64,000 nucleotides of DNA from Pedobacter cryotolerans (GTDB lineage: Bacteria > Bacteroidota > Bacteroidia > Sphingobacteriales > Sphingobacteriaceae), in the NCBI RefSeq assembly GCF_005116475.1, contig NZ_SWBO01000002.1:1-64000 (forward strand), in the 5' to 3' direction. How positions within the stretch are numbered: position 1 is the first letter of the stretch; each line of letters starts with the position of its first letter. Both the position numbers and the translations under genes were made by a program. This document shows positions 5,011 through 26,358 of this stretch, in pieces. The notes under the pieces were generated by a model. It saw only the letters and a program-made list of their open reading frames with translations, had not been told where the DNA came from and did not search any database.

Positions 5011-5012
5011 AT

Positions 5013-8480: not shown

Positions 8481-9557
8481 TTATTTTACTCCATCTAAAA
8501 TGCCTTGATAAGCAGCTTTCCTTTGGTATAGGTTATTAAATGGCATTGGCCAGTCTGGGCGATTATAATTTGATGGAATCCAGCTATCTGCATCGGTTAC
8601 ATTCCAAGTAGTTATACCAAATTGCTGTTCTCTTGGAATAGCATTAAATGTTTTTACGATGAACTTATATTTTGCTGCTTGGAGTTCGCCTAAAGCTGTG
8701 GTATAGGTAAGTGATTGATTATTGTCTGGATTTAATGCAATATCTAACTCTGAAATGTGAACCCTCAACCCTGTTGCTACAGCGGTATTTATTGCAGCTG
8801 CAAGATTGGCATCGGTTTGGTTGTAACGGGTATGCATTTGTAAACCAATGCCATTAATAGGCACGCCCTTGGCTTTTAAATCTGTAACCAATTTAACGAT
8901 GGCTGCTCTTTTGGTTGCACTATATTCGTGTCCATAATCGTTGTAAAACAACAAAGCATCTGGATCTGCATTTCTGGCATACTGGAAAGCTCGCTCAATA
9001 TAACCAACGCCCAATTTTTGCACCCAAATGCTATTGCGATAAGTTCCGTCATCTTCCAAGGCTTCATTTACTACATCCCATGAAGTAACCTTGCCTTTGT
9101 AACGACCAACTACAGTTTCGATATGTGTTTTTAACAAATTTTCCCAATCTGCAGTTGTACCATTAAAGTTGTTTACCCAATCAGGTAATGATTTATACCA
9201 ATTTAAAGTGTGCCCATGAACCCTTTTTCCATTTGCTTTTGCAAAATCAACCAAGTAATCGGCATCCGTAAAATTGTAGGTGGTTGCAGATGGTCGTAAT
9301 GCGTTCATTTTCATTACGTTTTCTGCAGTCACACTATTAAACTCTTTAATTACCAAATTACGATAATTGCTGTTGTTTTTTAGCAAACCAATGTTTAATG
9401 CTGCTCCTATCGGAAAGGGCAATTTCTCTTTCAAAGTACCATCTCCAATTACCACAATTTCTGGAGAAATAGTTGGAGCTATTGAGGTTTGGCTTTTTTT
9501 AGAACACACTAAAAAAGTTAAAGACGAAATGCAGATGATTTTGATATAGCTATTCAT
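8481..9557 (-). CDS. GH10 endo-beta-1,4-xylanase
   Basis: A TIM-barrel endo-xylanase of 358 residues. Diagnostic motifs are FNSVTAENVMKMNAL, HGHTLNWYKSLPDW, WDVVNEALEDDG with acid/base Glu165, YNDYG, and VHISELDIALN with nucleophile Glu270. The N-terminus is short and hydrophobic and ends LVCSKKS, so it may be a lipoprotein held at Cys18, though the lipobox is poor. It would cut xylan backbones at the cell surface or in the periplasm. It is the one clearly neutral-backbone enzyme in a locus otherwise aimed at uronic acids, and it sits 3 bp from the agarase-like gene and 15 bp from GH3. Confidence 0.95.
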   Translation of the reverse strand: MNSYIKIICISSLTFLVCSKKSQTSIAPTISPEIVVIGDGTLKEKLPFPIGAALNIGLLKNNSNYRNLVIKEFNSVTAENVMKMNALRPSATTYNFTDADYLVDFAKANGKRVHGHTLNWYKSLPDWVNNFNGTTADWENLLKTHIETVVGRYKGKVTSWDVVNEALEDDGTYRNSIWVQKLGVGYIERAFQYARNADPDALLFYNDYGHEYSATKRAAIVKLVTDLKAKGVPINGIGLQMHTRYNQTDANLAAAINTAVATGLRVHISELDIALNPDNNQSLTYTTALGELQAAKYKFIVKTFNAIPREQQFGITTWNVTDADSWIPSNYNRPDWPMPFNNLYQRKAAYQGILDGVK

Positions 9558-9559
9558 AT

Positions 9560-10981
9560 CTAGCGTTGTTTTTTATCGAAAAAATCGGTGAGTTGATACA
9601 TTTGCAGATTAAGTTCTTTCATTTTATCAACCAAAGGCGAATAAGGTTGATAATCGTTATTTAAAATTCCTTTATTTGCGTTGGTATTTGATGGCTCTGC
9701 TCCTTTTTGATCTGGATCATTGTCCATATATTTAAACCAATGCCAGCCAATACAATTTTTAGATTCAATTAAACCAAGGGTGAAGTTTTGGTAAAATAAA
9801 CCTCTGTCGTTTTGTGTTTTAACCACCCATCCTGCACCTGCGGTATTGCCCAAACCAGAATCATCTGCTTTTACATACCATTCGGTAATTAGAAAAGATT
9901 TGCCAGACCAGTTTGCCCAGTTTGCCATTTCGGCCTGATTTGGCGTCCAAGCGTTGTAATAATTCATCGAAATTGCATCGATATATTTACCTGCTGAACG
10001 CCACAATGGCTCCCATTTACTTTGCTGACCATGAAACCTACATCCCAAATACATGTGATTGGGATCGTATTTTTTTATTGCTTTAGAAACTATTGAAAAG
10101 TACTTATCAGCCACTACAGACAAAAATTCAAGTCGATTGGCATCGCTAAGTTTATTGGCATCAATCCCTCTTTCATCAATCCATTTTTTGGCAATCAAAT
10201 AACCGGGATCATTCTTATCTTTTAACGTTAAGTAACCGTCTAAATTTTTAATGCCCAGCGGCATTTCATTATCAGAAAAATAGCCAAACAAATTAGGATC
10301 ATCTTTATAGGCCAATAGTTTTTTAGCATGTCCATCACAAAACTCTTCAAACTGAGGATCGAAAACGAAGATGACGTTATTTGGATAACCTTTATGCCCA
10401 GGTACCACATAAGTTCCTCCCCTTTTATCGCCATAAGCACTCATAAAATCGAGGTTGATGGTGTAAGCTAATGGTTTTGTTTTTTGTAGGGGAGAATTGG
10501 TAATCACATTTGTATTAGACCATGCGCCAACCCCATTAAAGCCATTTTCCTTTAAGTAATTTTGCGTTTTTGCAATCCATTCTTTTTCATCACTATACTG
10601 TTTACCAAATGCATTTTTATTTCTCTCTGATGAGCCATAATTAACAGCCACAACAGCATTATGCAAAAATAAATGTCCTTTCGGATCGATAGCCCACCAT
10701 CTGCCATCAATTTTTTTAGTGTGATAAAAACCCGTAGCTTTTTCTTTACGATCTAATCTGCCACCGTAAACATCGTTTTTAATTGTTTTAGCTTTAAACC
10801 CTGTTAAACTATTCAGTGTTCTTGTTAAAAATGGCTTATAAGGAGTAAAATAAGCATTTACTGAAGAATTTTTCTCTACTTTTCTAGCATCAACTTTTAG
10901 CTTAAAATCTAAACTATCCTGAGCATTGAGTGATACGATCGAGAGCGTAAATAATCCAATAACCAATCCAAATTTTTTCAT
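9560..10981 (-). CDS. Clan GH-A glycoside hydrolase, agarase (GH50)-like, specificity unknown
   Basis: A 473-residue secreted protein (signal peptide ending SLNA) with a TIM-barrel glycosidase core. The N-terminal part has GRWWAIDPKGHLFLHNAV, a pattern shared with agarase-annotated proteins. The likely acid/base is Glu239 in GYFSDNEMPLG and the likely nucleophile is Glu367 in FLITEWYVKADDSG; ISMNYYN lies between them. The C-terminal WHWFKYMDNDPDQKG closes the barrel. No other agar-related gene is present, so agarose is an unlikely substrate. In this locus it may act on a uronate- or xylose-containing glycan. I cannot place it in a CAZy family without a search. Confidence 0.7.
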   Translation of the reverse strand: MKKFGLVIGLFTLSIVSLNAQDSLDFKLKVDARKVEKNSSVNAYFTPYKPFLTRTLNSLTGFKAKTIKNDVYGGRLDRKEKATGFYHTKKIDGRWWAIDPKGHLFLHNAVVAVNYGSSERNKNAFGKQYSDEKEWIAKTQNYLKENGFNGVGAWSNTNVITNSPLQKTKPLAYTINLDFMSAYGDKRGGTYVVPGHKGYPNNVIFVFDPQFEEFCDGHAKKLLAYKDDPNLFGYFSDNEMPLGIKNLDGYLTLKDKNDPGYLIAKKWIDERGIDANKLSDANRLEFLSVVADKYFSIVSKAIKKYDPNHMYLGCRFHGQQSKWEPLWRSAGKYIDAISMNYYNAWTPNQAEMANWANWSGKSFLITEWYVKADDSGLGNTAGAGWVVKTQNDRGLFYQNFTLGLIESKNCIGWHWFKYMDNDPDQKGAEPSNTNANKGILNNDYQPYSPLVDKMKELNLQMYQLTDFFDKKQR

Positions 10982-10982
10982 G

Positions 10983-12812
10983 TTATTTATATTTAGCTTG
11001 CATTTGCTTATAATAATCTTGTAGCACGAAAAAAGCTTTTTTCTTCTTTCCTGTTTCGCTAATTAAGCCCTTTCGGTTCCAAAAATTTTGGTAAACAGGG
11101 TGCTGTCTTCTGGGTGATCTAAAATCTGCCAAAATCCATGGGGTCATGCCTCTTAATGCATCAATTTTACTTAACAGGATAATTTGATTTTTGTATAATG
11201 CCTCTTGATATTCTTCACTCCAACGGGTATTCTCATCTGCATGAAAACCTCCTAAGGCATCGCCCCCAAACTCGGTAATTACTACAGGTTTATTGTATTT
11301 AATATCGAAATTGTAACTGGTAATTTCACTTGGTGTGCCACCCCAATACCAACCTGCGTATTCATTAAAACTTACCAAATCTATTTTATCTCCCAATGGA
11401 TCATTTAAGATAATGGTTTTACCTTCTCTATGCACTTCTAAAGCTGCTGCAACTAAACGTGTATCATCTAAACCTCTGGCTGTTTCGGCCAAGTTGCTCA
11501 TAAAACTTAGTCTTGGCGAGCTCAATGGCGTTTCGTTTCCAATAGACCAAACAATTACGCTTGCTCTATTTTTATCTCTTACAATTAAATCGGTAAGTTG
11601 TTGTTTTGCATTGGCATAAGTACCAGGATTTTCCCAACTTATAGTCCAGTAAACTGGCACTTCTGCCCAAACTAATAAACCCATTTCATCAGCCAATCGA
11701 ACCATTTCTTCGTTATGCGGATAATGAGCTAAACGCACATAATTACAATTCATGTCCTTTGCCCATTGCAACATCATTCGCATATCGCCTTCAGAACGTA
11801 ATCTGCCAGCCAATAAAGGGTTTTCATCATGGATAGAAATTCCTCTTAAAAAGATAGATTTACCATTTAGCAAGATATTATTTTCTTTAGTTTCTATTGT
11901 TCTAAAGCCAATTTTGTCTTGCAGCGTTTCTGTGGCCGATTTTATGGTAACCGCGTAAAGTTTAGGGTTTTCTGGCGACCAAAAATTTAGCCTATTCCAC
12001 TGAAATTGTTCACTAATTTTACCTTCGCTATCTGTTGTAAACTTTTTTTCTAATTTCAATTCAGGAATAGTAAGGGTAATTTCTTGTCCGGCAGTGGCAT
12101 CTTCCAATTTCACATCTAATTTTAAGGTGTTGTTGCTACCTTTAATCAATTGTAGTTTATAATCTTGGATATAATGATTTGGCAGTTCTGCTAAAAACAC
12201 ATCTCTGGTAATGCCTCCATAATTCCACCAATCTGTATTTACGGTTGGTATTTCATCAGGTTTCCTAGTGTTATCAGCTTTAACAACTAAAGAGTTTTCA
12301 CCTGCTTTTAGTTTATCGGTTACATCAAATTGAAAAGGTGTAAATCCACCTTTGTGTATACCTAATTTTTTACCATTTAAATATACATGAGCTTCATAAT
12401 TTACTGCACTAAAATACACCAAGTATTTCTTCCCCTTTTCAGGCTGTGCATTAAACTTACGCCTTAACCAAACTGTACCTTCATACAATTCTAGCTTTTC
12501 CGATTGCGAATTCCAGTCGCCAGGTACATTCATTTGTGGAGATAAATCAAAATTGTATTCAATCAACTCTGTTTTATTTTTTTGAACTTTATCATCATAA
12601 AAACCGCCAGAACCTGATTTAGACTGATCAAAGGGATCATGCCTGTAATCGTAAAATCCGTTCTCATAAGGATCTACAATATAATTCCATTTGCCATTGA
12701 GGCTGAGGATTTTACGAGATTGTATATTTTGTATAGAGTTAACTTGAGCGTAACTGAATGTGGTAAGAAGGGAAAAGCAGATGATGAGTACTCTATTTTT
12801 TAATTTTAGCAT
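10983..12812 (-). CDS. GH2 beta-glucuronidase
   Basis: GH2 domains appear in order: signal peptide to about 22, jelly-roll sugar-binding domain (WLRRKF, VYLNGKKLG, FDVTD), immunoglobulin-like domain to about 300 (IGFRTIE), and TIM barrel with NGKSIFLRGISIHDE, RLAHYPH, acid/base Glu427 in WSIGNETP and nucleophile Glu514 in VITEFGGD. Near the end, WNRKGLI supplies Asn579-x-Lys581. This NxK motif marks true beta-glucuronidases because it binds the uronate carboxylate. At 609 residues it matches E. coli GusA in length. It would release glucuronic acid from oligosaccharides in the periplasm, feeding the UxuA pathway. The promoter-proximal position in the enzyme block fits a core role. Confidence 0.88.
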   Translation of the reverse strand: MLKLKNRVLIICFSLLTTFSYAQVNSIQNIQSRKILSLNGKWNYIVDPYENGFYDYRHDPFDQSKSGSGGFYDDKVQKNKTELIEYNFDLSPQMNVPGDWNSQSEKLELYEGTVWLRRKFNAQPEKGKKYLVYFSAVNYEAHVYLNGKKLGIHKGGFTPFQFDVTDKLKAGENSLVVKADNTRKPDEIPTVNTDWWNYGGITRDVFLAELPNHYIQDYKLQLIKGSNNTLKLDVKLEDATAGQEITLTIPELKLEKKFTTDSEGKISEQFQWNRLNFWSPENPKLYAVTIKSATETLQDKIGFRTIETKENNILLNGKSIFLRGISIHDENPLLAGRLRSEGDMRMMLQWAKDMNCNYVRLAHYPHNEEMVRLADEMGLLVWAEVPVYWTISWENPGTYANAKQQLTDLIVRDKNRASVIVWSIGNETPLSSPRLSFMSNLAETARGLDDTRLVAAALEVHREGKTIILNDPLGDKIDLVSFNEYAGWYWGGTPSEITSYNFDIKYNKPVVITEFGGDALGGFHADENTRWSEEYQEALYKNQIILLSKIDALRGMTPWILADFRSPRRQHPVYQNFWNRKGLISETGKKKKAFFVLQDYYKQMQAKYK

Positions 12813-12882: not shown

Positions 12883-14640
12883 TTAATAACCTGTATTCTG
12901 GCCAAGTTTAGGTGATCTGTTTAATTCGTTTTGCGAAATTGGATAAAGGTAATTTCTGGCTGCAAATACTCTATTATCAACAGTAAAACGAGTATAGGTA
13001 AAAGTTGTTGCCGTAATTGGCGTAATTCTCATGCCTGTAACTGGTCCGTTAAAAGTAGTTTCGCCTTCTTTCCATCTACGTACATCAAAAAAGCGATGCT
13101 CTTCAAAACTAAGTTCTACTCTGCGTTCGTTTCTAATTCTTTTGCGCAATTCAATTTGGGTTGGCGCTACATAAGCATTACCTGCCGGATTTGTAGTTTG
13201 CAAAGCTGGCATTGCCACACCAGCTCTTGCCCTAACCAAATTAACAACCCTTAAAATTTCTGTAAGCTGAGCAGTTCCTTGAGCTTCATTTAGTGCTTCA
13301 GCATAATTTAATAAAACCTCTGCATATCTAAAGAAAATCCAAGGGCGACGAATATTTGTAGTTGTACCTGCCCAAGATGCACTCTCGCTTAAATACTTAC
13401 GCATGTAATAGCCTGTTTTAGTTGCATTTACATTTAACCCCAAACCGTCTTTACCGCCAACAAAAGTTTCTACAGGGCGAGATTTAAAATTGGTAGCTGC
13501 TATTGCAGGTTGTACCGAAGCCGAGTTAAATAATACCGTAAAACCTAAACGTGGGTCTCTGTTGGTATAAGGTGCGTTTGCATTGTAACCAGAAGTACCA
13601 TCAGAAATTGGTTTGCCTGTAGTTCTCATCTCGAAAGCATCAACAAATTCTTGTGTTGGGTTAGTGCGACCATTTGCACCATCGTAACTAATTGGCGCAT
13701 TATTGGTTTCGATAGCTGTGGTATTTAATGTTGCAGTGGCAAAAATTGTTTCGTTATTAAATGCTCCAGCAGTATTCCACAACCAAATGTTTGGGTAAGA
13801 ACTATAAATACCATGTTTGCCGGTATCCATAATTCGTTTGGCCGCATCAGCAGCTGCTTGCCATTTTACTAAACTGTTGGTGGTATTGTATTGCGGACTA
13901 GCAGCATACAACAATAATCTGGCTTTTAAAGCCATTGCTGCAGTTTGCGTTGCTCTACCTCTATCAACTGTTCTCCACTCAACTGGTGATAATGGTAATC
14001 TTGAAATAGCTGCTTCACAGTCATCTGAGATTTGTTTAACACATTCATCGAAAGTATTTCTTGGTAAATCTAACTCATCGTTAACTGATAAAGTTTTGGT
14101 TACGATGACATAACTACCATAGCGTTTTAACAATTCGAACTGGAAAAATGCCCTTAAAAAATAAGCCTGACCCAATAAACGTTGTATTTGAGCATCATAA
14201 GTTTGGTTTGCTGCTACATTTGCAGGCAAAACTTCATCAATGGGAATAATTGCACTTCCATTTGCTTTTTCTAAAAACATGTTCGCCTTGCGAATACCAG
14301 TATACATATCCGTATACACATCATCAACTGTTCTGGCGGCATTCCATGTACCATTTGTAAAAGTGTTAATGCCCGAATTTAAATTTGAATTAACCGCCTC
14401 ATCAGTTGCAGATGCCAATAGTGCGCCATCGCCCAAATTATATCGATCTGAGAGTGATGCATAAACATTGTTCAAAAAATTTCTGGCATAATCTGGATTT
14501 GCCCACAATTGAGCCTCAGTAACATCGTTTGTTCCACTGAATGATCCATCCTGAAGAAATTTATCTTTTTCGCATCCTGCTGAAATTAAAATTGCAGCGA
14601 GGAATATATAGCATATATTTTTTTTCATCTTCTTAATCAT
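12883..14640 (-). CDS. susD: SusD-like glycan-binding lipoprotein (second pair)
   Basis: A RagB/SusD outer-membrane lipoprotein of 585 residues. The N-terminus IKKMKKNICYIF...ISAGCEKDKF has a lipobox (SAGC). The SusD core is seen in YFLRAFFQFELLKRYG, ALKARLLLYAASPQYN, FFRYAEVLLNYAEALNEAQG and the C-terminal RIRNERRVELSFEEHRFFDVRRWK, LYPISQNELNRSPKLGQN. It caps the SusC channel encoded immediately upstream and binds oligosaccharide. The TAATG junction with that gene (stop and start overlap by one base at 14640) shows translational coupling. It is followed after about 70 bp by the GH2 gene. Confidence 0.95.
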   Translation of the reverse strand: MIKKMKKNICYIFLAAILISAGCEKDKFLQDGSFSGTNDVTEAQLWANPDYARNFLNNVYASLSDRYNLGDGALLASATDEAVNSNLNSGINTFTNGTWNAARTVDDVYTDMYTGIRKANMFLEKANGSAIIPIDEVLPANVAANQTYDAQIQRLLGQAYFLRAFFQFELLKRYGSYVIVTKTLSVNDELDLPRNTFDECVKQISDDCEAAISRLPLSPVEWRTVDRGRATQTAAMALKARLLLYAASPQYNTTNSLVKWQAAADAAKRIMDTGKHGIYSSYPNIWLWNTAGAFNNETIFATATLNTTAIETNNAPISYDGANGRTNPTQEFVDAFEMRTTGKPISDGTSGYNANAPYTNRDPRLGFTVLFNSASVQPAIAATNFKSRPVETFVGGKDGLGLNVNATKTGYYMRKYLSESASWAGTTTNIRRPWIFFRYAEVLLNYAEALNEAQGTAQLTEILRVVNLVRARAGVAMPALQTTNPAGNAYVAPTQIELRKRIRNERRVELSFEEHRFFDVRRWKEGETTFNGPVTGMRITPITATTFTYTRFTVDNRVFAARNYLYPISQNELNRSPKLGQNTGY

Positions 14641-17600
14641 TAAAATTTCAAGTTTAAACCGAATGAATAGATTTTCATATAAGGATATGATGAATTGTAA
14701 CCTGATTCTGGTAGTTCAGGATCGATATCCAAATCGCCCAATTTATCAAAGGTTAACAAGTTTAAACCACCTACATAAAATCTCAATTGTTGAAGTTTTA
14801 GTTTCTTTACAAATGCATCTGGTAATGAATAACCTAGCTCGATATTTTTCAATCTTAAAAAATCGCCAGAGCGGATCCAAAAATCTGAGTTAACCGTATT
14901 GTTCCCTCTATCTGCCAATAACAATCTAGGGAATGGTGCATTCGGATTTGATGGTGTCCATCTATCTACGCTGTATTGATTTAAAAATCCGTTGTTGGTA
15001 TTGCCTGCATTAACCAATTGTTGAATAGTAATTGAGCTACCTAATGTTCCTTGCAATAAAAAATTTAAATCGAAACCTTTTACAGCAACGCCAGCTCCAA
15101 AACCATAAACAGATTTTGGCACGAAGTTAAAATCGGTTTTAACACGATCTAAATCATTGATAATTCCATCTCCATTTTGATCTACGTACCTGATATCTCC
15201 CGGTTTAACTTCTCTCGAAAAAAGTTGAGTTGGGGCGGCATCTATCTCTGCTTGAGTTTGAAAAATACCATTAGAAATTAACATGCTGTTAATGTAACCA
15301 GCTCCTGTAGTTGCCGTTGCAGCTGGTGAAATTACACTCGAAATTGGTCTGCCTAAAGCTTTTTGATATTCTGGTAAATTTGCAGCTTCGTTAATAGCTA
15401 AAATTTTACTCACCTGATAAGTATAGTTACCAAACAAATTCAAGTTAACTTCACCAATCTTTTTATTGTAATTGATACCAGTTTCGAAACCTTTGTATGA
15501 TGCTTGACCTTCATTAACAAAAATTAAATTTTGGCCTAAAATATTCGGCAATAAAGATCCTGTAGTTAAATCTTTTCTGTTTTCGTAAAAGTAATCGGCA
15601 CTAATTGAAAGTGATTGTTTAAATATTTTAGCATCAAAGCCAATACTCGATTTGTAGGCTTTTTCCCATGTTAAAAAAGGATTTGCTAAAGCCAATTGTG
15701 CAGAACCACCTACACCAGTATATCCTGTGCCAAACGTGTAGCCAGTTGAGCTTCTCGCAAAGAAATCATTAAAAGCAAATCTTCTGGCACTGCCAATTGC
15801 ATCATTACCAACTAAGCCAAATGAACCTCTAATTTTTAAGAAATCAAGAAAACTTGATGAATTTTTCATGAAATCTTCATCCGAAATGATCCATCCTGCT
15901 GAAACTGCCGGAAAGAAACCAAATCTTCTGCCAACCGCAAAGTTTTCTGAACCAGAATAACCAGCCGTTAAATCCATAAAATAGCGTTGCTTAAATCCAT
16001 AAGTCATCCGACCAGAAATACCTTGGCGTTTTACATCCAAGTTTCCGAATGTAGAATAAACTTGTCTAGATACTCGCGTACTAAATTTGATATCATGATC
16101 TCCAAAAGTTCTATCATAATCAAAACCTGCCCAAAACTCACTTTTTCTAATATTGCCAGAAAAACTGTTAGCCTGATAATCTACTTTATTGGCAGTACCA
16201 TAGGTTTGATATAAGCCAGTTGGCAACAGTTCTGATGTTTCATAAGTTTGAGAAAAACCCGAACGATAGGCACCAGAAATATCATAAGCATAAAAAAGCT
16301 CTGCTGTTAATCCTTGTAAAATGCCATTCATTTTTTGTCTGGCACTAATGGTAGCAATCATATTTCTAACCAAATCAGTACTGGCTCCACGTGCCTCTAG
16401 CATCGCTTTAGGATTGCTAGTCTGGAAAATGGAAGTTCCGCCATAAGAACCATTAGGGTTTAATACCGGAAAAGCATTTGCTGGAGTACTGTATACAGCA
16501 TTTAAAAATGGACCAGTACCTTGGTTAGGGAAAGTTAAATTGGTAATTCTCCCGCCAATATCTAAAGCAACATCCAGATTTTTATTAACATGTAAATCTA
16601 AATTGGTACGTAAATTATACCTGCTAAAATTCGTGTTTGCATCGTAGGTTTCGTTAAAACCACCTTTGTAAAAGCCACCTTGTTGGTAAGCACTTAGCAA
16701 AGTATAATATTTGATAAATGCGTTACCACCACTTACACTTGCCACATAACGTTGTGTTGGTGCAACAGATTTGGTAAAATCTTTTACAAAATTATTGTTT
16801 GGATATTTGATCGGATCTGAACCTGTTTGATAAGCTTGCAAAGCGGTAGCATCGTAAATTGCTGTACCGCCACTATTAATTGAGGCTTCGTTGTATAAGG
16901 TTGCATAGCTAAAAGCATCAAGCGGACTTGCAATATTCAATGGAGCTTGTAAGCCTGCTTGCCCATCAAAAGTAACTTTTGTAGATGTAGCACTACCTCT
17001 TTTGGTTTTAACATAAATTACACCATTTGCGGCATACATGCCATACCAAGCTAAAGTTGCAGCATCTTTAAAAACACTTACACTTTCTATTTCACCTAAA
17101 TCCATTGCGGTAAAACTACGCTCTATCCCATCCACCAAAATTAAGGGCTCTTGGTTACTGTTATAAGATGATCTTCCCCTAATTAAAAAGCTCGATTCAT
17201 CGTAACCTGGTTGCTGAGAACCGCTTGGGTAGATATTTAATCCCGGTAGGCGACCTGTAAAAACATTAGTTAATGATGAGGATGGAATTTGAGGTAAGTT
17301 TTCGGCGCTAATGGTGCTGATAGAAGCTGTAACTTCTCTCTTTTTTCTTACCCCAAATGGGATATATACCAAGTCATCGTCTCCAGCATCTATTAATGAT
17401 TTTGCTAAAGTAATGGAAACATTATTCACTTCGCCAGCTGGCTTATAAACTGTACCGTAACCAATCATTTTAAAAACCAATACATCACTTGTAGAGGTTT
17501 CAATGGTATATTCGCCATTGGCATTGGTATTTACTGTTCTATTTTTTTTATCTTCTTGAATAGAAATAGCCACACCAGGTAATGGATTTTTATCCTGATC

Positions 17601-17717
17601 AATTACTTTTCCTTTAATGGTAATTTGTTCATCGGGGTTTTGTTGCCCATAAACATGCAGTACAGCCATCCATAAAAATAGCAGACATACGATATATTTT
17701 GATTTTGATAATTTCAT
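14640..17717 (-). CDS. susC: SusC-like TonB-dependent outer-membrane transporter (second pair)
   Basis: A SusC/RagA TonB-dependent porin of about 1025 residues from the start at 17717 (MKLSKSKYIVCLLFLWMAV), chosen over an upstream in-frame ATG at 17765 because it gives a clean signal peptide and no overlap with the upstream susD. It has a carboxypeptidase-regulatory-like domain (ITIKGKVIDQDKNPLPGVAISI), a plug with GRLPGLNIYPSG, FLIRGRSSYNSNQEPLILVDGIERSF and VFKDAATLAWYGMYAANGVIYVKTKRG, and a barrel ending IYSFGLNLKF. The usual VVVGYGTQ segment is replaced by LVYIPFGVRKKREVTAS, as in a divergent SusC subgroup. It imports oligosaccharides using TonB energy. Confidence 0.95.
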   Translation of the reverse strand: MKLSKSKYIVCLLFLWMAVLHVYGQQNPDEQITIKGKVIDQDKNPLPGVAISIQEDKKNRTVNTNANGEYTIETSTSDVLVFKMIGYGTVYKPAGEVNNVSITLAKSLIDAGDDDLVYIPFGVRKKREVTASISTISAENLPQIPSSSLTNVFTGRLPGLNIYPSGSQQPGYDESSFLIRGRSSYNSNQEPLILVDGIERSFTAMDLGEIESVSVFKDAATLAWYGMYAANGVIYVKTKRGSATSTKVTFDGQAGLQAPLNIASPLDAFSYATLYNEASINSGGTAIYDATALQAYQTGSDPIKYPNNNFVKDFTKSVAPTQRYVASVSGGNAFIKYYTLLSAYQQGGFYKGGFNETYDANTNFSRYNLRTNLDLHVNKNLDVALDIGGRITNLTFPNQGTGPFLNAVYSTPANAFPVLNPNGSYGGTSIFQTSNPKAMLEARGASTDLVRNMIATISARQKMNGILQGLTAELFYAYDISGAYRSGFSQTYETSELLPTGLYQTYGTANKVDYQANSFSGNIRKSEFWAGFDYDRTFGDHDIKFSTRVSRQVYSTFGNLDVKRQGISGRMTYGFKQRYFMDLTAGYSGSENFAVGRRFGFFPAVSAGWIISDEDFMKNSSSFLDFLKIRGSFGLVGNDAIGSARRFAFNDFFARSSTGYTFGTGYTGVGGSAQLALANPFLTWEKAYKSSIGFDAKIFKQSLSISADYFYENRKDLTTGSLLPNILGQNLIFVNEGQASYKGFETGINYNKKIGEVNLNLFGNYTYQVSKILAINEAANLPEYQKALGRPISSVISPAATATTGAGYINSMLISNGIFQTQAEIDAAPTQLFSREVKPGDIRYVDQNGDGIINDLDRVKTDFNFVPKSVYGFGAGVAVKGFDLNFLLQGTLGSSITIQQLVNAGNTNNGFLNQYSVDRWTPSNPNAPFPRLLLADRGNNTVNSDFWIRSGDFLRLKNIELGYSLPDAFVKKLKLQQLRFYVGGLNLLTFDKLGDLDIDPELPESGYNSSYPYMKIYSFGLNLKF

Positions 17718-17755
17718 AATTGAATAAAATCTTATTGCGTAATTGAATAGACAGC

Positions 17756-19477
17756 TTACTCCCAACCAGGATTTTGAGTTAATACTCCTTTACTTTTAAA
17801 AATCTCTGGGCGAGGAATTGGGTAAAGGTTTTGGCGCTCATTCCATGTTTTTTGGAAATTGTTACCTAAAGTGAATACAGTGTAAGTGAAAGACCCATTG
17901 CTGTTTCTAAACACATCCATTCCTTTCATAGGCACACCAATAGTAGTTGCGCCAATTTTCCAGCGCATAATATCGTACCAACGGTGATCTTCAAAAGCCA
18001 ATTCAATAGCACGCTCATGTCTAATTGCTTCACGCATTTCTGCTGTAGTCATGTTGTCTTTTAAACCATAGCCATAAACTCCAGTACCACGAGCAATACC
18101 TGCTCTTTGGCGAATAAGTACTAGCGCATTGTAAACGCTAGCATCTGGCGCTGATAAAAATTCATTTTGTGCCTCTGCATAATTTAATAAAACTTCCGCA
18201 TAGCGGAAATAAATGTAATTGAGCAAGGTGGTACTGCCACCAACAGTTCTATAAACTTCTGGCCAGTATTTTTTACAATAATATCTTGTTGCTGTATAGG
18301 TGATATTTCTCGGATCCCAATCTACACCATAACTTAAGTTTGGCGCTGTACCTGTTGCCCACATTTGGATTCTTCTTCCCTGCCAAGGTAAATCGTTATA
18401 AATAATATTGGCATAAAAACGTGGCTCTCTACCTACATACGGAGTTGCTGCATTGTAACCAGATGTTGGGTCTGTAATTGGCTTTCCATTAGCCATTTCA
18501 TACATATCTACGTGGTTTTGTGTTGGGTTCATTTGGCCTTGTGCACCTCCAGAACCTGGAGACATCGAAAAATCCTGCATCATTTCTCCAGCTAAAGGGG
18601 TATTACCTTTAATTCTGATCATGATGTATTCTGGCGAGTTTGGAACGTTTAAAATATCTGCATAAGTTGGTTGTAATGCATATCTACCATCCATTAATAC
18701 CAAAGATGCATCAGCCGCTGCTTTCCATTTTGCTTTATCACTCGATGGATTATTTAAAGGACTGGCTGCATAAAGTAATACACGAGCTTTTAAAGCTTGT
18801 GCCGCTCCAATTGTTGGCCTGCCATAGTTAGATGTGCTATAATCTTCGTCATTTCCTAATTTAGTTACCGCTACTTCTAAATCTGCCAATATATAATCTG
18901 TAATTTCTTGAAAGGTTTTTCTTGGCAAGTTGATGTCTTCATTTACTTCATAAACCTTATCAATTAATGGTACACCACCAAATCTTTTGGTTAGTTCGAA
19001 ATAAGACATGGCACGAATAAATCGCATTTCTCCTTCAACACGTTTAGGATCGAAAATTGGAACAGTTGCGTTTGGAGAAGGTGGAACATCATTGATTTTA
19101 GCCAACATTTTATTGGTAATGGCTATGCCTTTATACATTCTTTCCCAGATATCTCCAATATCATTTAAAGAGGCTTGTGTAGAATGCTCGTGGTACAAAC
19201 CACGATTTAATGAAGTAACTGTTCCTTCTGAATTACCAGAAACTGCCTCATCTGAAGCTTGAGCCACACAACCCCGGTGATCGTTAAAGCGTACATATTT
19301 ATGGATAAGATAGTTATAAGCGTTATCTGCAAATCTTGCAGCCAGTGCAGGGTTAGCGAAAATTTCTTCCTCGCTAATGGCTACACCTGGTGTTCTTTCT
19401 AAAAAGTCTTTTTTGCAAGATACAAAGCCGACAGTAATTAAAAAGACTAGTATAGTTTTGATATATTTTTTCATCAT
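17756..19477 (-). CDS. susD: SusD-like glycan-binding lipoprotein (first pair)
   Basis: A 573-residue SusD family lipoprotein; the lipobox Cys lies in VGFVSCKKDFLERTPG. Core features are FIRAMSYFELTKRFGGVPLIDKVY, ALKARVLLYAASPLNNP, YFRYAEVLLNYAEAQNEF and MREAIRHERAIELAFEDHRWYDIMRWK, with LYPIPRPEI near the end. It starts 2 bp after the stop of the first susC gene, so the two form a standard pair. It shares only family-level similarity with the second SusD, so the two pairs probably bind different parts or sizes of the same glycan and are not a recent duplication. Confidence 0.95.
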   Translation of the reverse strand: MMKKYIKTILVFLITVGFVSCKKDFLERTPGVAISEEEIFANPALAARFADNAYNYLIHKYVRFNDHRGCVAQASDEAVSGNSEGTVTSLNRGLYHEHSTQASLNDIGDIWERMYKGIAITNKMLAKINDVPPSPNATVPIFDPKRVEGEMRFIRAMSYFELTKRFGGVPLIDKVYEVNEDINLPRKTFQEITDYILADLEVAVTKLGNDEDYSTSNYGRPTIGAAQALKARVLLYAASPLNNPSSDKAKWKAAADASLVLMDGRYALQPTYADILNVPNSPEYIMIRIKGNTPLAGEMMQDFSMSPGSGGAQGQMNPTQNHVDMYEMANGKPITDPTSGYNAATPYVGREPRFYANIIYNDLPWQGRRIQMWATGTAPNLSYGVDWDPRNITYTATRYYCKKYWPEVYRTVGGSTTLLNYIYFRYAEVLLNYAEAQNEFLSAPDASVYNALVLIRQRAGIARGTGVYGYGLKDNMTTAEMREAIRHERAIELAFEDHRWYDIMRWKIGATTIGVPMKGMDVFRNSNGSFTYTVFTLGNNFQKTWNERQNLYPIPRPEIFKSKGVLTQNPGWE

Positions 19478-19478
19478 T

Positions 19479-22400
19479 TTAGAAATTAATGTTTAATCCA
19501 AAATTGTAAACTCTTGAAGATGGATAAAGCGATTGAAGAGGAAAGGTCTGATTGACCACATTCAAGTTTTCAGGATCTAAGTACATTTTGAATTTTGTCC
19601 AGGTATACAAGTTTTGTCCATTCATAAAAACCCTAATGTTGCTTAATTTTAAAGCCGTAGACCAAGCTTTAGGCAAATTATAAGCAACTTCTACGTTCCT
19701 GATTTTTAGGTAAGCAGCATTTTGTAAGGTAAAATCGTTTAAAGCATAATTTAACGATGCCGTACCTCTAGAGTGCAAAGCTGGCCAAGTTGCCGTTGCT
19801 GGATTTTCTGGCGTCCAAGCGTTTAACATAAAAGGGTACATTTGCTGACCATTGTTTTGCTCTGATAAAATTACATTTGAGCTTACATTTGCAGCGCCTT
19901 GAAACATTACCGATAAAGTAAGACCTTTAAAGGCAACCCTTGGTGTAAAACTATAAACGTACTCTGGGTTGTTGGTATAACCGATTGAGGTTTGATCTAA
20001 AGTTGTAATGAGCCCATCACCATCTAAATCTAACATTTTTAAATCTCCAGGTATCGGATTAAAACCTTGCTGTTTTGGCGAAGCATCAATATCTGCTTGA
20101 GAAGCATAAAAACCATCAGTTTTATAACCAATAAACTGACCAACACTTTTACCCTTTCTGGCATCTCTATCTGGCAAACCATCTGGTTCATCGTTTTCTA
20201 CAATTCTATTTTTAGCGTAGCCTACTTGTGCATTTAAACCAATAGACACCTGCCCAACTACTGCTTGATAATCTAACTCAACCTCGTAACCTTTGTTATA
20301 AACCTCCCCAACATTTAAACGCGGATAGGCATGACCAAAAAGTTCTAAACCACTTAGTGCATTGGTTAAAATATCTTTACGGGTTTCGTCAAATAAATCA
20401 ACAGTAACTTTAAATCTATCTTTAAACAACCTTGCTTCTAAGCCAATGTTTCTTTTATAGCCAGTTTCCCAAGTCACTAAATCATTTCCTAATGCATTAG
20501 GTGGCAACCAAATAGTTGGATAATTTGTGATTGATAAAGGATTTCCAAATGGCGCTAAAAAGCCCTCGCCAGAAGTACCGTTTGTAGTTCCGTTTGCATA
20601 GGCTGTTAAAAATAGAAAACGCTGATCTGCAATTCGATCATTTCCTACCAAACCATAACTACCTCTTACTTTTAAATAAGTTAAGGTATTGTTTTTCCTA
20701 AAGAAAGGCTCGTTTGTAACAGTCCATCCTGCCGATACCGATGGGAACAACCCATATCTTAAACCAGGTGCAAAATTTTCTGAACCATTATAAGTTCCAT
20801 TTACCTCAACAATGTAACGGCTATCATATTCGTAAAAGAAACGTGCGGCCAAACCCTGTGCTGCTCTTGGTGGTGCACTAAATGAATTATCGCCTGTGGT
20901 TCGAATAAGTTCTCTCCTACCTAACAACATCCCGTTAACACTGTGTTTACCAAAAGTACGTGTATAGTTAAAAGAGGTTTGGATGTTCATATTGGTGCTA
21001 CCAGAAGTTACCCCGCCATTTACTACTGCACCTAAAGGCTCATCTCGGTTACGGGTATCGGTTGATAAGGTTGCCTCTCTAGTAACTGGATTAAAAACCC
21101 ATGCTGCCCAGTTGGCATTTCTTCTCTCCACATTGTTGTAGTAAGAATCGTAACCAAAAATGGTTTTAAACGTTAAACCTTTAGTTACAAAATCTAATTT
21201 GTAATCTAAATTAAAAGTACTTTCTATGGTATTGATATCATCGTTACGTGTGCCATAACGTGTTAAAATGGCAAATGGGTTCCAAATGTTTGTACCAACG
21301 TTCGGGTTTGCTGTAATTCTTCCATCGGGCAACGTAACCGGATAAGCATAAGCAGGCACTTGCAAAATACGAGAAATCATCCCCTCAATTGTATCATACG
21401 AAAAAGCTGAGGCAGACAATAAACCAGATGGTTGATAACGGTTGGCAAAACGACCACCTAGTTTAATTCCTACGGTTAAATCTTTGCTCAATGTTAAATC
21501 AACATTTGACCTAAAATTGTATCTACTGTAATTGGGTACAGTATTGATGCCATAAGGCGAATCAAATTTTTTGAAAATACCATCTTGAAAAGAATATCCA
21601 GCCGAAACAAAATATTTTGCAATTTTAGTACCACCATTAATGTTAATGTTGTGTTGGGTTTGAGAATAATATTTCTTGGTTAAATAATCAAACCACTGCA
21701 CATCTGGGTATCCAATTGGATCAGATTTATCGGCAAATTTTTGTATGGCTTCATCAGAAAATGGAGCCGCCTTTCCATCATTTAAATAGGATCTATTTAA
21801 CAATTTTGCATTCTCTAAGGCTGGCAAACCAACCGCTAAACCCGTGTAAGTTTGTGCTGCAAGATTACCTGTGTATGTTACACGTGGTTTACCAATTTTA
21901 CCAACTTTGGTGGTAATTACGATAACGCCATTTGCTCCTTTTAAACCATAAATTGCTGTAGATGCAGCATCTTTTAATATCGATACTGTTTCAATTTCAT
22001 TCGGATCTACATCTGCAAAGCTTGGGCGTTCAATACCATCAACAACAACAATTGCCGAAGCAGAAGCTGAGTTTAGTGTGGCAATACCTCTAATTCTAAT
22101 GGTAGAAGCATCTGCTCCGGGCTGGCCACTTGTTTGAACTGCAATTAAACCCGGCAACCTACCAATTAAACTATTGGTTGGATTTGGGGTTGGAGATTTT
22201 AAAATGTCTTCTGAACTAATTTGAGAAATTGCTGCGGTAACACTGGCTTTTTTCTGTGTTCCATAACCTACAACAATTACCTCATCCAATCCTTTTGCAT
22301 CTTCTTCTAAAGTAACTTGAATGGTTGTTCTTCCTCTTAAAGCAACTTCTTGCTCTTTATAGCCAATACTCGTAATTACTAAAGTTGCCTGAGCATCTAC

Positions 22401-22700
22401 ATTACGCAAAGTAAATTTACCATCAACATCTGTTGATATGGCATTTTGAGTTCCTTTTACCTTAACACCAATGCCTGGTAATGGGTAACCTTTGGTATCT
22501 AAAACTACGCCGGTAACATCGGCAAAAAAAGATTTGGGTTGATTTACCCTCTTTTTTAACTTGATTGCAGATGTAGTTAGATAATTGAGCTTGATACTAT
22601 GCTTAATAGTAATAGCTGAAGCACTAATTTGCAGAAACAAACACCATAGCAGTGTAATTGAAATTTTCCGCAAAATTCTTTTTAATAGAATTTTCCTCAT
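19479..22700 (-). CDS. susC: SusC-like TonB-dependent outer-membrane transporter (first pair)
   Basis: A 1073-residue SusC family transporter, the first structural gene of the PUL. The signal region WCLFLQISASA is preceded by a basic stretch. A carboxypeptidase-D-like domain follows (FFADVTGVVLDTKGYPLPGIGV), then the classical DEVIVVGYGTQKKASVTAAIS, plug motifs GRLPGLIAVQTSGQPG and IRIRGIATLNSA with VVDGIERPSF, and a beta barrel ending VYNFGLNINF. No STN domain is present, so it is not a FecA-type sensor-transporter, consistent with regulation by the separate protein encoded upstream. A promoter candidate lies about 45-75 bp ahead of the start. Confidence 0.95.
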   Translation of the reverse strand: MRKILLKRILRKISITLLWCLFLQISASAITIKHSIKLNYLTTSAIKLKKRVNQPKSFFADVTGVVLDTKGYPLPGIGVKVKGTQNAISTDVDGKFTLRNVDAQATLVITSIGYKEQEVALRGRTTIQVTLEEDAKGLDEVIVVGYGTQKKASVTAAISQISSEDILKSPTPNPTNSLIGRLPGLIAVQTSGQPGADASTIRIRGIATLNSASASAIVVVDGIERPSFADVDPNEIETVSILKDAASTAIYGLKGANGVIVITTKVGKIGKPRVTYTGNLAAQTYTGLAVGLPALENAKLLNRSYLNDGKAAPFSDEAIQKFADKSDPIGYPDVQWFDYLTKKYYSQTQHNININGGTKIAKYFVSAGYSFQDGIFKKFDSPYGINTVPNYSRYNFRSNVDLTLSKDLTVGIKLGGRFANRYQPSGLLSASAFSYDTIEGMISRILQVPAYAYPVTLPDGRITANPNVGTNIWNPFAILTRYGTRNDDINTIESTFNLDYKLDFVTKGLTFKTIFGYDSYYNNVERRNANWAAWVFNPVTREATLSTDTRNRDEPLGAVVNGGVTSGSTNMNIQTSFNYTRTFGKHSVNGMLLGRRELIRTTGDNSFSAPPRAAQGLAARFFYEYDSRYIVEVNGTYNGSENFAPGLRYGLFPSVSAGWTVTNEPFFRKNNTLTYLKVRGSYGLVGNDRIADQRFLFLTAYANGTTNGTSGEGFLAPFGNPLSITNYPTIWLPPNALGNDLVTWETGYKRNIGLEARLFKDRFKVTVDLFDETRKDILTNALSGLELFGHAYPRLNVGEVYNKGYEVELDYQAVVGQVSIGLNAQVGYAKNRIVENDEPDGLPDRDARKGKSVGQFIGYKTDGFYASQADIDASPKQQGFNPIPGDLKMLDLDGDGLITTLDQTSIGYTNNPEYVYSFTPRVAFKGLTLSVMFQGAANVSSNVILSEQNNGQQMYPFMLNAWTPENPATATWPALHSRGTASLNYALNDFTLQNAAYLKIRNVEVAYNLPKAWSTALKLSNIRVFMNGQNLYTWTKFKMYLDPENLNVVNQTFPLQSLYPSSRVYNFGLNINF

Positions 22701-22744
22701 ACAGTTTAATTTGGTTGATTAGTATTCCAAAATATTTGGTTTGG

Positions 22745-22777
22745 TAAATATAGAATAATCACATTCGTATATGCAAA
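22745..22777 (-). promoter_or_regulatory. Candidate Bacteroidota sigma-A promoter of the PUL
   Basis: On the minus strand TTTG (774-777 in + coordinates caaa) is followed after 21 bp by TATATTTA, close to the phylum consensus TTTG-N19-21-TAnnTTTG with one mismatch at the last base. The start of transcription would fall near 22738, leaving a leader of about 40 nt before the susC ATG at 22700. Confidence 0.45.
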
Positions 22778-22883
22778 TATTAATTTTCATAAATACCTGA
22801 TATTTAATTAGTTATAAAGTTTTTAATACGCTTTATGCGCACTACTACTTTTCATTAAGTAATTGATTTACTTATACATAAGG

Positions 22884-22915
22884 TACGTTAAAAAAAAAGT
22901 GCTGATACGTTAAAA
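22884..22915. promoter_or_regulatory. Direct repeats 22 bp apart, candidate operator
   Basis: The 10-mer tacgttaaaa occurs at 22884-22893 and again at 22906-22915. The spacing of 22 bp is about two helical turns, so both copies face the same side of the helix, as for binding sites of a dimeric or bidentate activator. The repeats lie about 145-170 bp upstream of the predicted PUL start of transcription and just downstream of the regulator gene. No function is shown; part of the match is a common A run. Confidence 0.3.
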
Positions 22916-22997
22916 TCACATTAAAAAAAAATGAAATATTTTTTAGAAAAACGATTAACTGAAGGCTTAAACATTGATTTTAGTTCTTTTGCAGCAG

Positions 22998-24920
22998 TTA
23001 TTTATTAATGATGAGCTTGCTCCAACCAGATTTACCGCTGCCTTTAATGTCTTTTTTGCGATCTTCCATTACTTTTTTAACCTTCGAAGCGTAGGTCCAA
23101 CAGGTACTTTGTCTTATTCCAATCCTTTCTGAAAGCTTATGAGAAGATATGGCACCTTTATGGTTGTACATTAAATAAACCAAATAAAAGGCCTTGTTAA
23201 TTGGAATACGATTGTTTTCAAAAATGGTATCGTGTAAAACTGATTCTTCATAAGCACATTTGGTGCACCTGCGATTAAATGGAACTTTACCGTTGCAATA
23301 GCTCGTATTGCTGCATTTGATACAGGCATAACCATTCTCCCATTTCATATCAGCTAAAAATTTATAACACGAATCTTTATCTGGATATTTTAAACTAAAC
23401 TCTTCAAAATCAACCTCTGTTGCATTTACACGTGCTTCTCTTACCTTTTCTATATTTGTTTTTAGATTGATGTTATCTTTTTCCAGCAAAATATTCATCC
23501 TAGAAATCTCTTCAGCTTGATGCTCTAACAAAGTATTTTTTGATAAAAGTTCTTCGTTTTGATGTTCGATAGTAATATTTTTCTGCTGCAACTCGGCCGA
23601 TTTTTGTTGCACCTCCTTTGTTCGCACTACTACTTTATCTTCTAATTCCTTATTAATGTTATCTTTCAATTCTGCATTAACCTGCATTTGTTTGATGATT
23701 TGTTTGCGAGCATTTTCTTTTTTACGCCTTAAAATCCTTACCTGATCGCCAATGGCAAAAGATAAAAAAACCATCTCTAGTAAAAAGCCAAAGCTTAAAC
23801 TGTAGTAACCAACAACATTGCCTATAAATAACCTAGACCAGCCTAAAATGTGTACAATTTTGATGATAAAGCCGAGCGACAGAAAAAAGTAGCCCAAAAC
23901 AAAAAACCTAGCGGGGCCATATTGTTTTTTCCACCAGATGTAAATACCAGTAAAAAAGCAAAGCGATAATGGAATAAACTCTAAAAATTTGTACTTGAAC
24001 CAATCGGTGTTATAGAAAAGACAAACTAAAAAATAGATTAACCTGATTATAATTAGAAGGTTGATAACCGTATTAATTTTTGGAGCCTTTATTTTAACAT
24101 GCAAAAGTTCTTTGGTAAAAATTAAGCCAAAAGTGCTTAAGAAAAAAAGCGAAACCCCATACGCATACTCGTTCCAAACAGGTTGGTTTGGCCATAGATA
24201 TTGAAAAGCAATTCCATCGGTCGACATTTCGAACATTCCAACACTTAAAACATATAAAATGTAGAACAGATATTGCCGTCTTCGCACTGCTAAGAACATC
24301 AATAAATTATGGAAACTAAAAATTACAATCATGCCATAGAAAAAACCAAACATGATGTATTCTGATAACGCATAACCGATAAACCTTTCTACTGTTCTAA
24401 AAACAATAATAACGTTTACCTGATCTTTAGATTCTACCCTGAAGTAATAAAAATACTCTCCTTTTTTATCGGTATTAATTAAAAATTGGAAGTTTTTATG
24501 ATGAAATGAGCGCTCTCTAAAGCTTAAATCGGCACCAGCCTTACTTTTAACATAATTACCATTTTCGTCAGGCAAATACGCCTCCACATGATCAGTAATC
24601 TGATCGAAGAACTCGATAATAGCAGAGTGACCCAATTTTTCATTAAACCTAACTTTTATCCGATACCAATAAGCAGCCTTACGGTTATAGTTTTTAGGAT
24701 AAAAATCTTTATTGGCAATAAACTTATCCTGATAAGCCGCACTTTTAACCTCTTCAATCGTTAAATTTCGATTTATATCTTCTAAACAAACGATCTCTTT
24801 ATTTACAAAAATATGTTCTTTTGTATTGGTATCTATATTAACAACTTGCTGTGCTATAACCTGATGAGCACTAAAAAAAATAAAAAAGTAAACTAAACGG
24901 TTTATAACTTTTCTTAACAT
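22998..24920 (-). CDS. 7TMR-DISM receptor fused to IS1595-type transposase zinc ribbon and HTH (putative membrane-bound PUL regulator)
   Basis: A 640-residue chimera. Residues 1-24 are a signal peptide. Residues 25-175 resemble the extracytoplasmic DISMED2 domain, a jelly-roll thought to bind carbohydrate (AAYWYRIKVRF, HVEAYLPDENG, YYFRVESKD). About 180-395 holds seven hydrophobic helices of the 7TMR-DISM type. Residues 398-497 form a long coiled coil (ELKDNINKELEDKV, then repeated QQKN/HQNEELLSKN). In place of a kinase or cyclase, residues 505-620 read KYPDKDSCYKFLADMKWENGYAC, with a zinc ribbon Cys533-x2-Cys536 and Cys552-x2-Cys555, HDTIFENNRIPINKAF, then an HTH (ISSHKLSERIGIRQSTCWTY). That is the N-terminal DNA-binding module of IS1595 transposases; the DDE nuclease is absent. 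Immediately upstream and co-oriented with the PUL, it likely senses glycan and binds DNA. Confidence 0.85.
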   Translation of the reverse strand: MLRKVINRLVYFFIFFSAHQVIAQQVVNIDTNTKEHIFVNKEIVCLEDINRNLTIEEVKSAAYQDKFIANKDFYPKNYNRKAAYWYRIKVRFNEKLGHSAIIEFFDQITDHVEAYLPDENGNYVKSKAGADLSFRERSFHHKNFQFLINTDKKGEYFYYFRVESKDQVNVIIVFRTVERFIGYALSEYIMFGFFYGMIVIFSFHNLLMFLAVRRRQYLFYILYVLSVGMFEMSTDGIAFQYLWPNQPVWNEYAYGVSLFFLSTFGLIFTKELLHVKIKAPKINTVINLLIIIRLIYFLVCLFYNTDWFKYKFLEFIPLSLCFFTGIYIWWKKQYGPARFFVLGYFFLSLGFIIKIVHILGWSRLFIGNVVGYYSLSFGFLLEMVFLSFAIGDQVRILRRKKENARKQIIKQMQVNAELKDNINKELEDKVVVRTKEVQQKSAELQQKNITIEHQNEELLSKNTLLEHQAEEISRMNILLEKDNINLKTNIEKVREARVNATEVDFEEFSLKYPDKDSCYKFLADMKWENGYACIKCSNTSYCNGKVPFNRRCTKCAYEESVLHDTIFENNRIPINKAFYLVYLMYNHKGAISSHKLSERIGIRQSTCWTYASKVKKVMEDRKKDIKGSGKSGWSKLIINK

Positions 24921-25185
24921 ATTAACTAATTTGTAAATTATAATCAGTTACTATATTTAAAATATGGCTCATACCTGATGTTAAAAATGATTTGGTTTAA
25001 AACTGTTTAAATTTAGCACGAATAAATTGTTTGGTTCTTGAAAACAGTAACCAAGGCACCAAGCCGCGGTAAGTGTTTACAAGTGTAAATTGAACCTATC
25101 ATTTTTAAACAGCTTCTTATTATTGATTAAATATATTAACAAAAAATTAAATACCTTACCCTATTGTTTAATATCATTATCAATT

Positions 25186-26358
25186 GTGAAAAAACTATTC
25201 ATTTTCTTCCTGCTCATCAACAGCTATCAACTCGCTAGTGCCGCTAAATACAAGGTTAATTCTGCAGATGAACTAAAAAACTTAATGCCAAATTTATTAC
25301 CTGGCGATGAAGTAATTATCGCTAATGGAAAATATATTAATTGGGCGGTAGAAATTACATGCAATGGCACTAAAGCAAAACCAATTGTATTTAAGGCAGA
25401 AAATGTAGGTTCGGTTATTTTTTATGGCGAAACTCATCGAACTATTTTTAAAATTACTGGTCATTACATTACCTTAAGTGGCTTAGTATTTAACCAATGT
25501 ATTTTAACAAAAAAAGAAGGAAAAACCGCTGTGTTAATAGAAATGAGCAACACCAAAAACTGCATAATTACAAAATGTGTTTTTAAACAAAACAATTCAA
25601 AAATTCAGTATTCGCCTTTGGTAATTATAGCTGGTAATGGTTTTAAAAACAAAGTTGATCAATGTTTATTTGAACAAAACATCGATGTGCAAGACATACA
25701 GGTTAAAATAACAAAAGAAAGTGCCCCTCAGTTTTCTACTATCTCCTATAATATTTTTAAAAACAAACCAAAGGTTACGTGGCAAAATGGAAATGGTGGC
25801 GAATGTGTACAAATAGGTCAAGACCCCATTTTGTTAGGCAATATGGAAGCAAACACATTAGTTAGTCATAACAAATTTTACAACTGCGATGGTGAAAATG
25901 AAATTATCAGTAATAAAAGCAGTAAAAACACTTATTTAAGCAATTATTTTACAGAATGTGATGGTGAGTTGGTTATGCGTGGAGGACATGATTGCATTAT
26001 TAAAGGAAACATTTTTAACAGCGGTACTGGAGGAATCAGAATTAATGGAACTGGCCATATCATCAGTAATAACAAAATTAAAAACATAAAAACAGCCATT
26101 AGGTTAATGTACGGAATGACAAAGGGTAAAAATGAAACTGGCTTTTATGTGGCGGCAAGTGATTGTATAATATCAAACAATAAAATAACCAATGCCCAAA
26201 ATGGAATTTTAGTAGGTGATAATAAAAATGAAGATTGGACTGGCAAATTCGACACCAAGCGGTATCCATCACCCGTTATGCAAAACGTTGCACCATTTAA
26301 CAATAAGTTAAATGGCAATGTGTTTAAAAATGTAAAGGCTACTGAAGTAATTCAATAG
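25186..26358 (+). CDS. PL6 polysaccharide lyase (alginate lyase / chondroitinase B family)
   Basis: A secreted right-handed beta-helix lyase. The N-terminal KVNSADELKNLMPNLLPGDEVIIANGKY and the family core ENEIISNKSSKNTYLSNYF with LVMRGGHDCIIKGNIF and GGIRINGTGHIISNN are diagnostic for PL6. Counting from the upstream ATG at 25090, Lys276 and Arg297 are 21 residues apart, exactly the spacing of the catalytic Lys250/Arg271 of chondroitinase B. I chose a GTG start at 25186 because it begins a compact signal peptide (KKLFIFFLLINSYQLASA); the ATG at 25090 adds 32 residues and remains possible. PL6 enzymes act on alginate or dermatan sulfate. It is transcribed away from the regulator gene with a 265-bp gap. 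Confidence 0.88.
   Translation: MKKLFIFFLLINSYQLASAAKYKVNSADELKNLMPNLLPGDEVIIANGKYINWAVEITCNGTKAKPIVFKAENVGSVIFYGETHRTIFKITGHYITLSGLVFNQCILTKKEGKTAVLIEMSNTKNCIITKCVFKQNNSKIQYSPLVIIAGNGFKNKVDQCLFEQNIDVQDIQVKITKESAPQFSTISYNIFKNKPKVTWQNGNGGECVQIGQDPILLGNMEANTLVSHNKFYNCDGENEIISNKSSKNTYLSNYFTECDGELVMRGGHDCIIKGNIFNSGTGGIRINGTGHIISNNKIKNIKTAIRLMYGMTKGKNETGFYVAASDCIISNNKITNAQNGILVGDNKNEDWTGKFDTKRYPSPVMQNVAPFNNKLNGNVFKNVKATEVIQ

Follow-up and report, generated by a model that had tools for sequence, protein, structure and literature searches.

Accounts of PUL control in Bacteroidota center on SusR, HTCS and ECF sigma/anti-sigma systems. The sites predicted for SusR are directly repeated at a distance of 67 or 77 bp, and HTCS motifs are direct repeats as well (PMC3878776). 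Among 7TMR-DISM proteins (RetS, LadS, SagS, RgsP, NicD), the outside domains are predicted to bind carbohydrates and the outputs described are kinase, GGDEF, EAL and PAS domains (PMC6107284), to which the ChiS-family study adds a DNA-binding domain fused C-terminally to 7TMR-DISM in Proteobacteria (PMC8092284). We analyzed a 64-kb stretch of DNA (hereafter, the window) for which the original prediction had claimed a membrane receptor with an IS1595-type module placed at a PUL. Matches at the level of the protein family, linkage to PULs and a paired sequence motif support this claim, and the protein, found in soil bacteria, is most likely a membrane one-component PUL regulator whose output domain is of an unusual, transposase-like type and for which we newly identified a candidate operator.

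The receptor gene, a 7TMR-DISM/IS1595-type zinc ribbon-HTH fusion, is a single open frame of 640 aa on the minus strand at 22998-24920, which confirms the uninterrupted 640-residue protein first read there with no strand given. Its parts, all on the minus strand, begin with a signal peptide (about residues 1-23; 24852-24920), apparent from the sequence and from helix 2-18 of the AlphaFold2 model. This is followed by an extracytoplasmic 7TMR-DISMED2 domain (residues 42-174; 24399-24797; Pfam PF07696, 1.8e-25) and by the seven helices of a 7TMR-DISM_7TM domain (residues 187-393; 23742-24362; Pfam PF07695, 6.8e-40, with the helices also in the model), bearing out the DISMED2-like sensor and seven hydrophobic helices proposed at the outset. 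A coiled coil of about 100 residues had been expected after the membrane helices, and a long cytoplasmic helix or coiled coil does occupy residues 394-498 (23427-23741; model helices 368-462 and 465-498), at low model confidence beyond residue 457. The C-terminus holds a zinc ribbon (residues 514-560, with Cys533, 536, 552 and 555; 23241-23381; Pfam PF12760 and conserved cysteines) and an IS1595 transposase-type helix-turn-helix (residues 570-627, recognition helix IRQSTCW; 23040-23213; NCBIfam NF033547). Taken singly, the window protein matches Zn_ribbon_IS1595 at residues 514-557 with E 6.6e-4 and 20.0 bits, i.e., below the Pfam cut-off of 25.4 bits, while positions 2-60 of the 215 of NF033547 (IS1595 transposase) align with residues 570-627 at E 2.8e-7, a score that falls far short of the whole-protein cut-off, as a partial match should. 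The DDE catalytic domain (PF12762) is absent from the protein by Pfam. Structure prediction, proposed as a check, yielded a folded C-terminal module from a 31-row alignment (mean pLDDT 86, pTM 0.78) and, in the full model, an outside beta domain and a membrane part of seven helices, continued by a helix that extends to about residue 498; sequence and fold searches of solved structures returned no meaningful sequence match, and no significant fold match for the C-terminal module.

The 7TM domain, the DISMED2 domain and an intracellular signalling module, by which 7TMR-DISM proteins are recognized, are thus all present in the window protein. The membrane part is shared with other 7TMR-DISM receptors, whereas their described outputs differ from the transposase-type DNA-binding module seen here; an output module of this kind is not described for 7TMR-DISM in the open-access literature found, nor did we find there a description of the fusion of receptor and transposase module. 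The ChiS-family DNA-binding domain is set apart by its description, at least in the portions of that source used here, as a helix-sheet-helix without zinc ribbon or transposase link (PMC8092284), and the zinc ribbon and IS1595 match in the receptor would speak against a domain of the ChiS type. HTCS and ECF sigma/anti-sigma pairs likewise control PULs; Pfam searches of the window protein returned no histidine kinase, receiver, AraC, sigma or anti-sigma domain.

Counted from the receptor gene, and on the same minus strand, the window carries a susC-like TonB-dependent transporter gene that is the presumed target (19479-22700, by similarity to other susC genes), susD (17756-19477), a second susC (14640-17765), a second susD (12883-14640), a GH2 glycosidase (10983-12812), a 473-aa PUL protein without Pfam or NCBIfam match that is possibly an undescribed enzyme (9560-10981), a GH10 of the xylanase family (8481-9557), a GH3 glycosidase (6222-8465), an alginate-lyase-like polysaccharide lyase (5013-6176), a 508-aa lyase-like PUL protein (3496-5022; weak match to the hyaluronic acid endo-lyase family NF058554, 7e-10), a GH88-like hydrolase (2308-3492) and the mannonate dehydratase UxuA of uronate catabolism (613-1788), the remaining assignments being by Pfam. 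This gene content would fit a PUL that acts on a polymer with uronic acids, perhaps one resembling xylan. A chondroitinase-B-like lyase gene (25090-26358, plus strand) is oriented divergently to the receptor gene, and ORFs of 387-391 aa occupy this position in several close relatives.

A survey of homologue neighborhoods, also proposed as a check, found SusC/D within 1.5 kb at 27 of the 30 receptor loci and at none of the 21 loci of other 7TMR-DISM proteins, with like-for-like 1.5-kb flanks for both sets (Fisher p 1.8e-11). More broadly, susC directly follows the receptor gene, on its strand, in 52 of 81 receptor loci, and SusC/D lies within six genes in 65 of the 81; we count the other 16 against a PUL regulator. 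Where the next gene is not susC, 7 of 10 loci checked have a GH2, GH30, GH20 or polysaccharide-lyase gene in its place, and the non-glycan next genes of the other 3 (L132, L147, L149) likewise count against this role. At three loci (L144, L145, L146), 0-9 bp separate the receptor gene from a GH2 gene that follows it, a susCD pair lies upstream, and high-scoring boxes of the kind described below precede a susC of the locus instead of standing downstream of the receptor gene.

The region singled out earlier as the likely DNA target, 22700-22997, contains a conserved paired motif that tracks the receptor gene through the family. Alignment of close relatives revealed two conserved direct repeats in the receptor-susC gap, the footprint of a paralogue group about 54% identical shares the same operator core, and the combined operator motif consists of paired direct repeats, TGnGnnTnAAGCGTATCA. 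In the window, candidate operator box 1, TGTGATTTTAACGTATCA (22903-22920, minus strand), and box 2, TGCGCATAAAGCGTATTA (22824-22841, minus strand), stand 79 bp apart and have the two top PWM scores of all 64 kb, i.e., 18.3 for box 1 and 22.4, the best, for box 2; the next score is 10.4. Phylogenetic footprinting further marks a conserved TTTG-containing element, putatively Bacteroidota -33-like (22764-22778, minus strand), and a conserved TATATTTAC, Bacteroidota -7-like (22744-22752, minus strand), lies 79-80 bp from box 2 in 17 of 17 sequences measured. In close relatives, the distance is about 79 bp both from box 1 to box 2 and from box 2 to the -7-like element (22744-22920 of the window, minus strand).

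At least one box was found in 69 of 77 receptor-susC gaps and at least two in 59 of 77, the PWM having been trained on these gap regions, with reverse-strand, other-promoter, held-out-family and genome scans as controls. At the same threshold, 130 boxes faced forward, toward the target, versus 5 matches on the reverse strand, and spacings were mostly 68, 76-79 or 86-92 bp. Of 50 susC promoters next to a receptor gene, 92% scored above 10; for the remaining susC promoters of these loci the median was 0.9, the high ones occurring only where a receptor gene was near but displaced or divergent. When held-out families were scored with a PWM from Sphingobacteriaceae only, the f2 locus L180 reached 20.3 and the f9 loci L187 and L188 reached 15.5 and 11.7, with L186 weaker at 6.7. 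One locus, L304, has a second box pair in the same PUL (9786-9874), between susD and a GH3 gene, which suggests a second controlled promoter.

SusR is likewise a membrane protein with a sensor outside and a helix-turn-helix inside, beside susCD, and its site spacing of 67 or 77 bp comes close to the 68, 76-79 and 86-92 bp seen here, a likeness of operation only. For direct comparison, a starch PUL was located at L317 (GH13, GH97, SusC, SusD) in a phylum sample; an earlier GH97 search for Bacteroides starch loci had found none in one family. The presumed SusR of this locus has a signal peptide, one TM helix and DUF6377, without 7TM domain or zinc ribbon, and the window protein has no Pfam match to DUF6377 or to a SusR-type sensor and HTH. 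We rejected the idea that the receptor is itself a SusR, since the two have unrelated sensors and DNA-binding domains (hhalign probability, 0.4%). By analogy of layout, SusR is the nearest functional analogue, and the receptor would work like a SusR without being one. Proteins of about 500-640 aa with a strong match to the receptor half (L162-L166, L168, L174, L176, L178) were also discarded as SusR relatives, their C-termini being cyclase- or kinase-like and the module absent.

Taken together, the computation supports the architecture, the homology of module and transposases, conservation, PUL linkage and operator-like pairs, and we consider it quite probable that the receptor is a one-component, membrane-anchored transcription regulator that activates its PUL through the paired boxes. 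The outside DISMED2 domain would sense a glycan-derived ligand, as the 7TMR-DISM literature suggests, and the 7TM bundle would relay the signal to the long cytoplasmic coiled coil, which presumably dimerizes the receptor. The C-terminal zinc ribbon and HTH would then grip the two direct-repeat boxes, 79 bp apart and upstream of the susC promoter, and the bound receptor would turn on susCD and the enzyme genes. That the module binds the boxes is suggested by their strong co-occurrence, and activation by the position of the boxes upstream of a conserved promoter-like element. Successive spacing classes (68, 76-79 and 86-92 bp) lie roughly one helical turn apart, which suggests that two receptor units act together on DNA with fixed phasing, as predicted for SusR. 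Membrane tethering restricts access to DNA and counts against a membrane-anchored regulator, as do the five f8 loci and the f5 member L298, whose receptors lack a recognizable box, and the failure of the fold search to match the module to a solved structure. Instead of activating, the receptor might bind the boxes as a repressor that is released by ligand, and the computation does yield a site and a linkage, not the sign of regulation; we regard this as unlikely, however, because both boxes lie upstream of the promoter-like element, an activator-like geometry as in predicted SusR sites (PMC3878776).

It is even less likely that the boxes belong to another PUL regulator, with the receptor acting otherwise and linked to them by neighborhood alone. 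Such a view draws on the indirect nature of the case for box-module binding and on the f8 receptors, which lack such boxes, but it fits poorly with the genome scans. Across 144 related genomes, the strict pair pattern gave 46 matches versus 2 for a reversed control, and 43 of the 46 fell within 5 kb of a receptor gene. It occurred in 41 of the receptor-bearing genomes, tallied by hand at about 92, versus 0 of the 52 others (p 2e-10). Two of the three more distant matches, from two genomes (L300, L301), each stand before a susCD pair of a similar kind, likely a trans target. An isolated pair match at G073:C3, with no PWM site above 12, is probably due to chance. In the genome of the window itself, a relaxed pair pattern gave two matches, a count not above chance given two matches also in the reversed control, and the true matches both lie in the predicted places, i.e., receptor-susC gaps.

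The boxes also follow susC where the receptor gene is displaced or divergent (L077, L092, L115, L148), and they accompany shortened receptor versions in which the coiled coil and module are kept and the sensor is missing. Two such versions, at L307 (4288-5250, minus strand, 321 aa) and L308 (3131-3952, minus strand, 274 aa), have one TM helix, the coiled coil and the zinc ribbon-HTH without the 7TM sensor, and are divergent from a susC whose promoter contains a box pair 78-79 bp apart. The f8 exception can be read in the same way. Receptor fusions there (L181-L185) are next to or near susCD, the PWM scan recognized no box in these five loci or at the f5 member L298, and a box search in f8 found only weak repeats, none common to the loci; this loss of the box coincides with an altered recognition helix (LGTNTVW or LRRNTIW). 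As a correlation across these sequences, module and box appear to go together, consistent with the receptor as the regulator that binds them.

The original prediction had also proposed a search of genomes for the same fusion, and it proved common. Of 145 genomes from the genus, most (about 92, counted by hand) carry full-length fusions, often in multiple copies and 43-83% identical to the query; the named close relatives are Pedobacter. The C-terminal module was detected in 201 of 400 genomes of the family, with strong matches in frames of about 620-690 aa. Further full-length fusions came from families f2, f8 and f9 in a phylum sample, and another from f5 (L298). The four zinc-binding cysteines (Cys533, 536, 552 and 555) show no variation across the 31-row alignment, and their conservation among 81 members is at least 97%. 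The expectation of a protein end about 20 residues past the HTH and without DDE domain also held, the end lying 11-24 residues past the HTH in 81 of 81 Sphingobacteriaceae members examined. At the level of sequence conservation, the receptor is a real and old family of Sphingobacteriaceae and four further families. The identity of the module, weak for the single sequence (20.0 bits), was settled at this level too: each of 31 diverse C-termini matches the IS1595 zinc ribbon model (PF12760) with an E value no worse than 0.1 and, at best, 5.7e-8, and the member L298 clears the Zn_ribbon_IS1595 cut-off with 30.1 bits. A chance or degenerate fusion, in which an IS1595 element broke a receptor gene and left a pseudogene or in which the assembly went wrong, would account for the homology of the module to transposases and the sub-threshold zinc-ribbon score, but this is refuted, to the point of being practically negligible, by equal-length homologues conserved across several families with their zinc-binding cysteines kept and a DDE domain in none. 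A decayed stand-alone copy of the module, with one internal TAG, is present in the window's own genome (G000:C30:12667-12981; L005, L199) and matches the receptor family with 99% hhalign probability.

The proposal of a distinct regulator class stands in part: the transposase-type output module and the operator are new, but the overall body plan is not, because the ChiS-family 7TMR-DISM fusion (PMC8092284) and SusR precede it. We are evenly divided on the stronger proposition of a new receptor-transcription factor class in which a 7TMR-DISM receptor and an IS1595 DNA-binding end were joined, the fusion then reaching a number of Bacteroidota families and giving rise to paralogues that each have their own paired operator before their PUL. 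The receptor would give Sphingobacteriaceae and their relatives a further type of PUL regulator with a defined candidate operator, by which regulons become predictable through sequence search and each receptor could be matched to a glycan via its PUL. In addition, a membrane receptor here has a DNA-binding module of transposase type as its output domain, so that the idea that bacterial transcription factors originate from transposons becomes open to testing.

With IS1595 (ISXO2-like) transposases, the receptors share the zinc ribbon, the HTH and a similar recognition helix; in the transposases a DDE domain follows the module, whereas the receptors stop at the module. The presence of zinc ribbon and HTH and the absence of DDE argue for common ancestry with transposases in a protein that is not a transposase. 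A profile of the family's module matches complete, DDE-bearing IS1595 transposases, the nearest with up to 137 bits. In a quick tree, the receptor modules group together (SH-aLRT 90) along with one short stand-alone protein (L192), and transposases of the genome G596 (L189-L191) are among the rows nearest to them. Descent from transposase to receptor is likely on these sequences but unproven, because tree support is moderate and the root arbitrary. Sphingobacteriaceae receptors have IRQSTCW as their recognition helix; in this place the nearest transposases (L189-L191) have LRQGTCW, LRQKTCW or IQQKTCW, and typical IS1595 transposases have VTQKTAW or ITQKTAW.

Descent of the operators from transposon ends is a further idea that we do not claim and hold to be improbable, the operator PWM failing to single out the ends in 18 IS loci. 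A terminal repeat of 25 bp in the IS of L191, CGACATCATAAAAcGTAATTGGTAT, contains CATAAAACGTA, which resembles CATAAAGCGTA of the operator, and sister elements of this IS have ends like AATTAGG(C/T)ATTTA. The genome G596 (L280-L293, L189-L191) contains at least 15 diverse IS1595-type transposase genes, 47-84% identical to the one in L191 and several with terminal repeats, which are the nearest transposase relatives of the receptor module.
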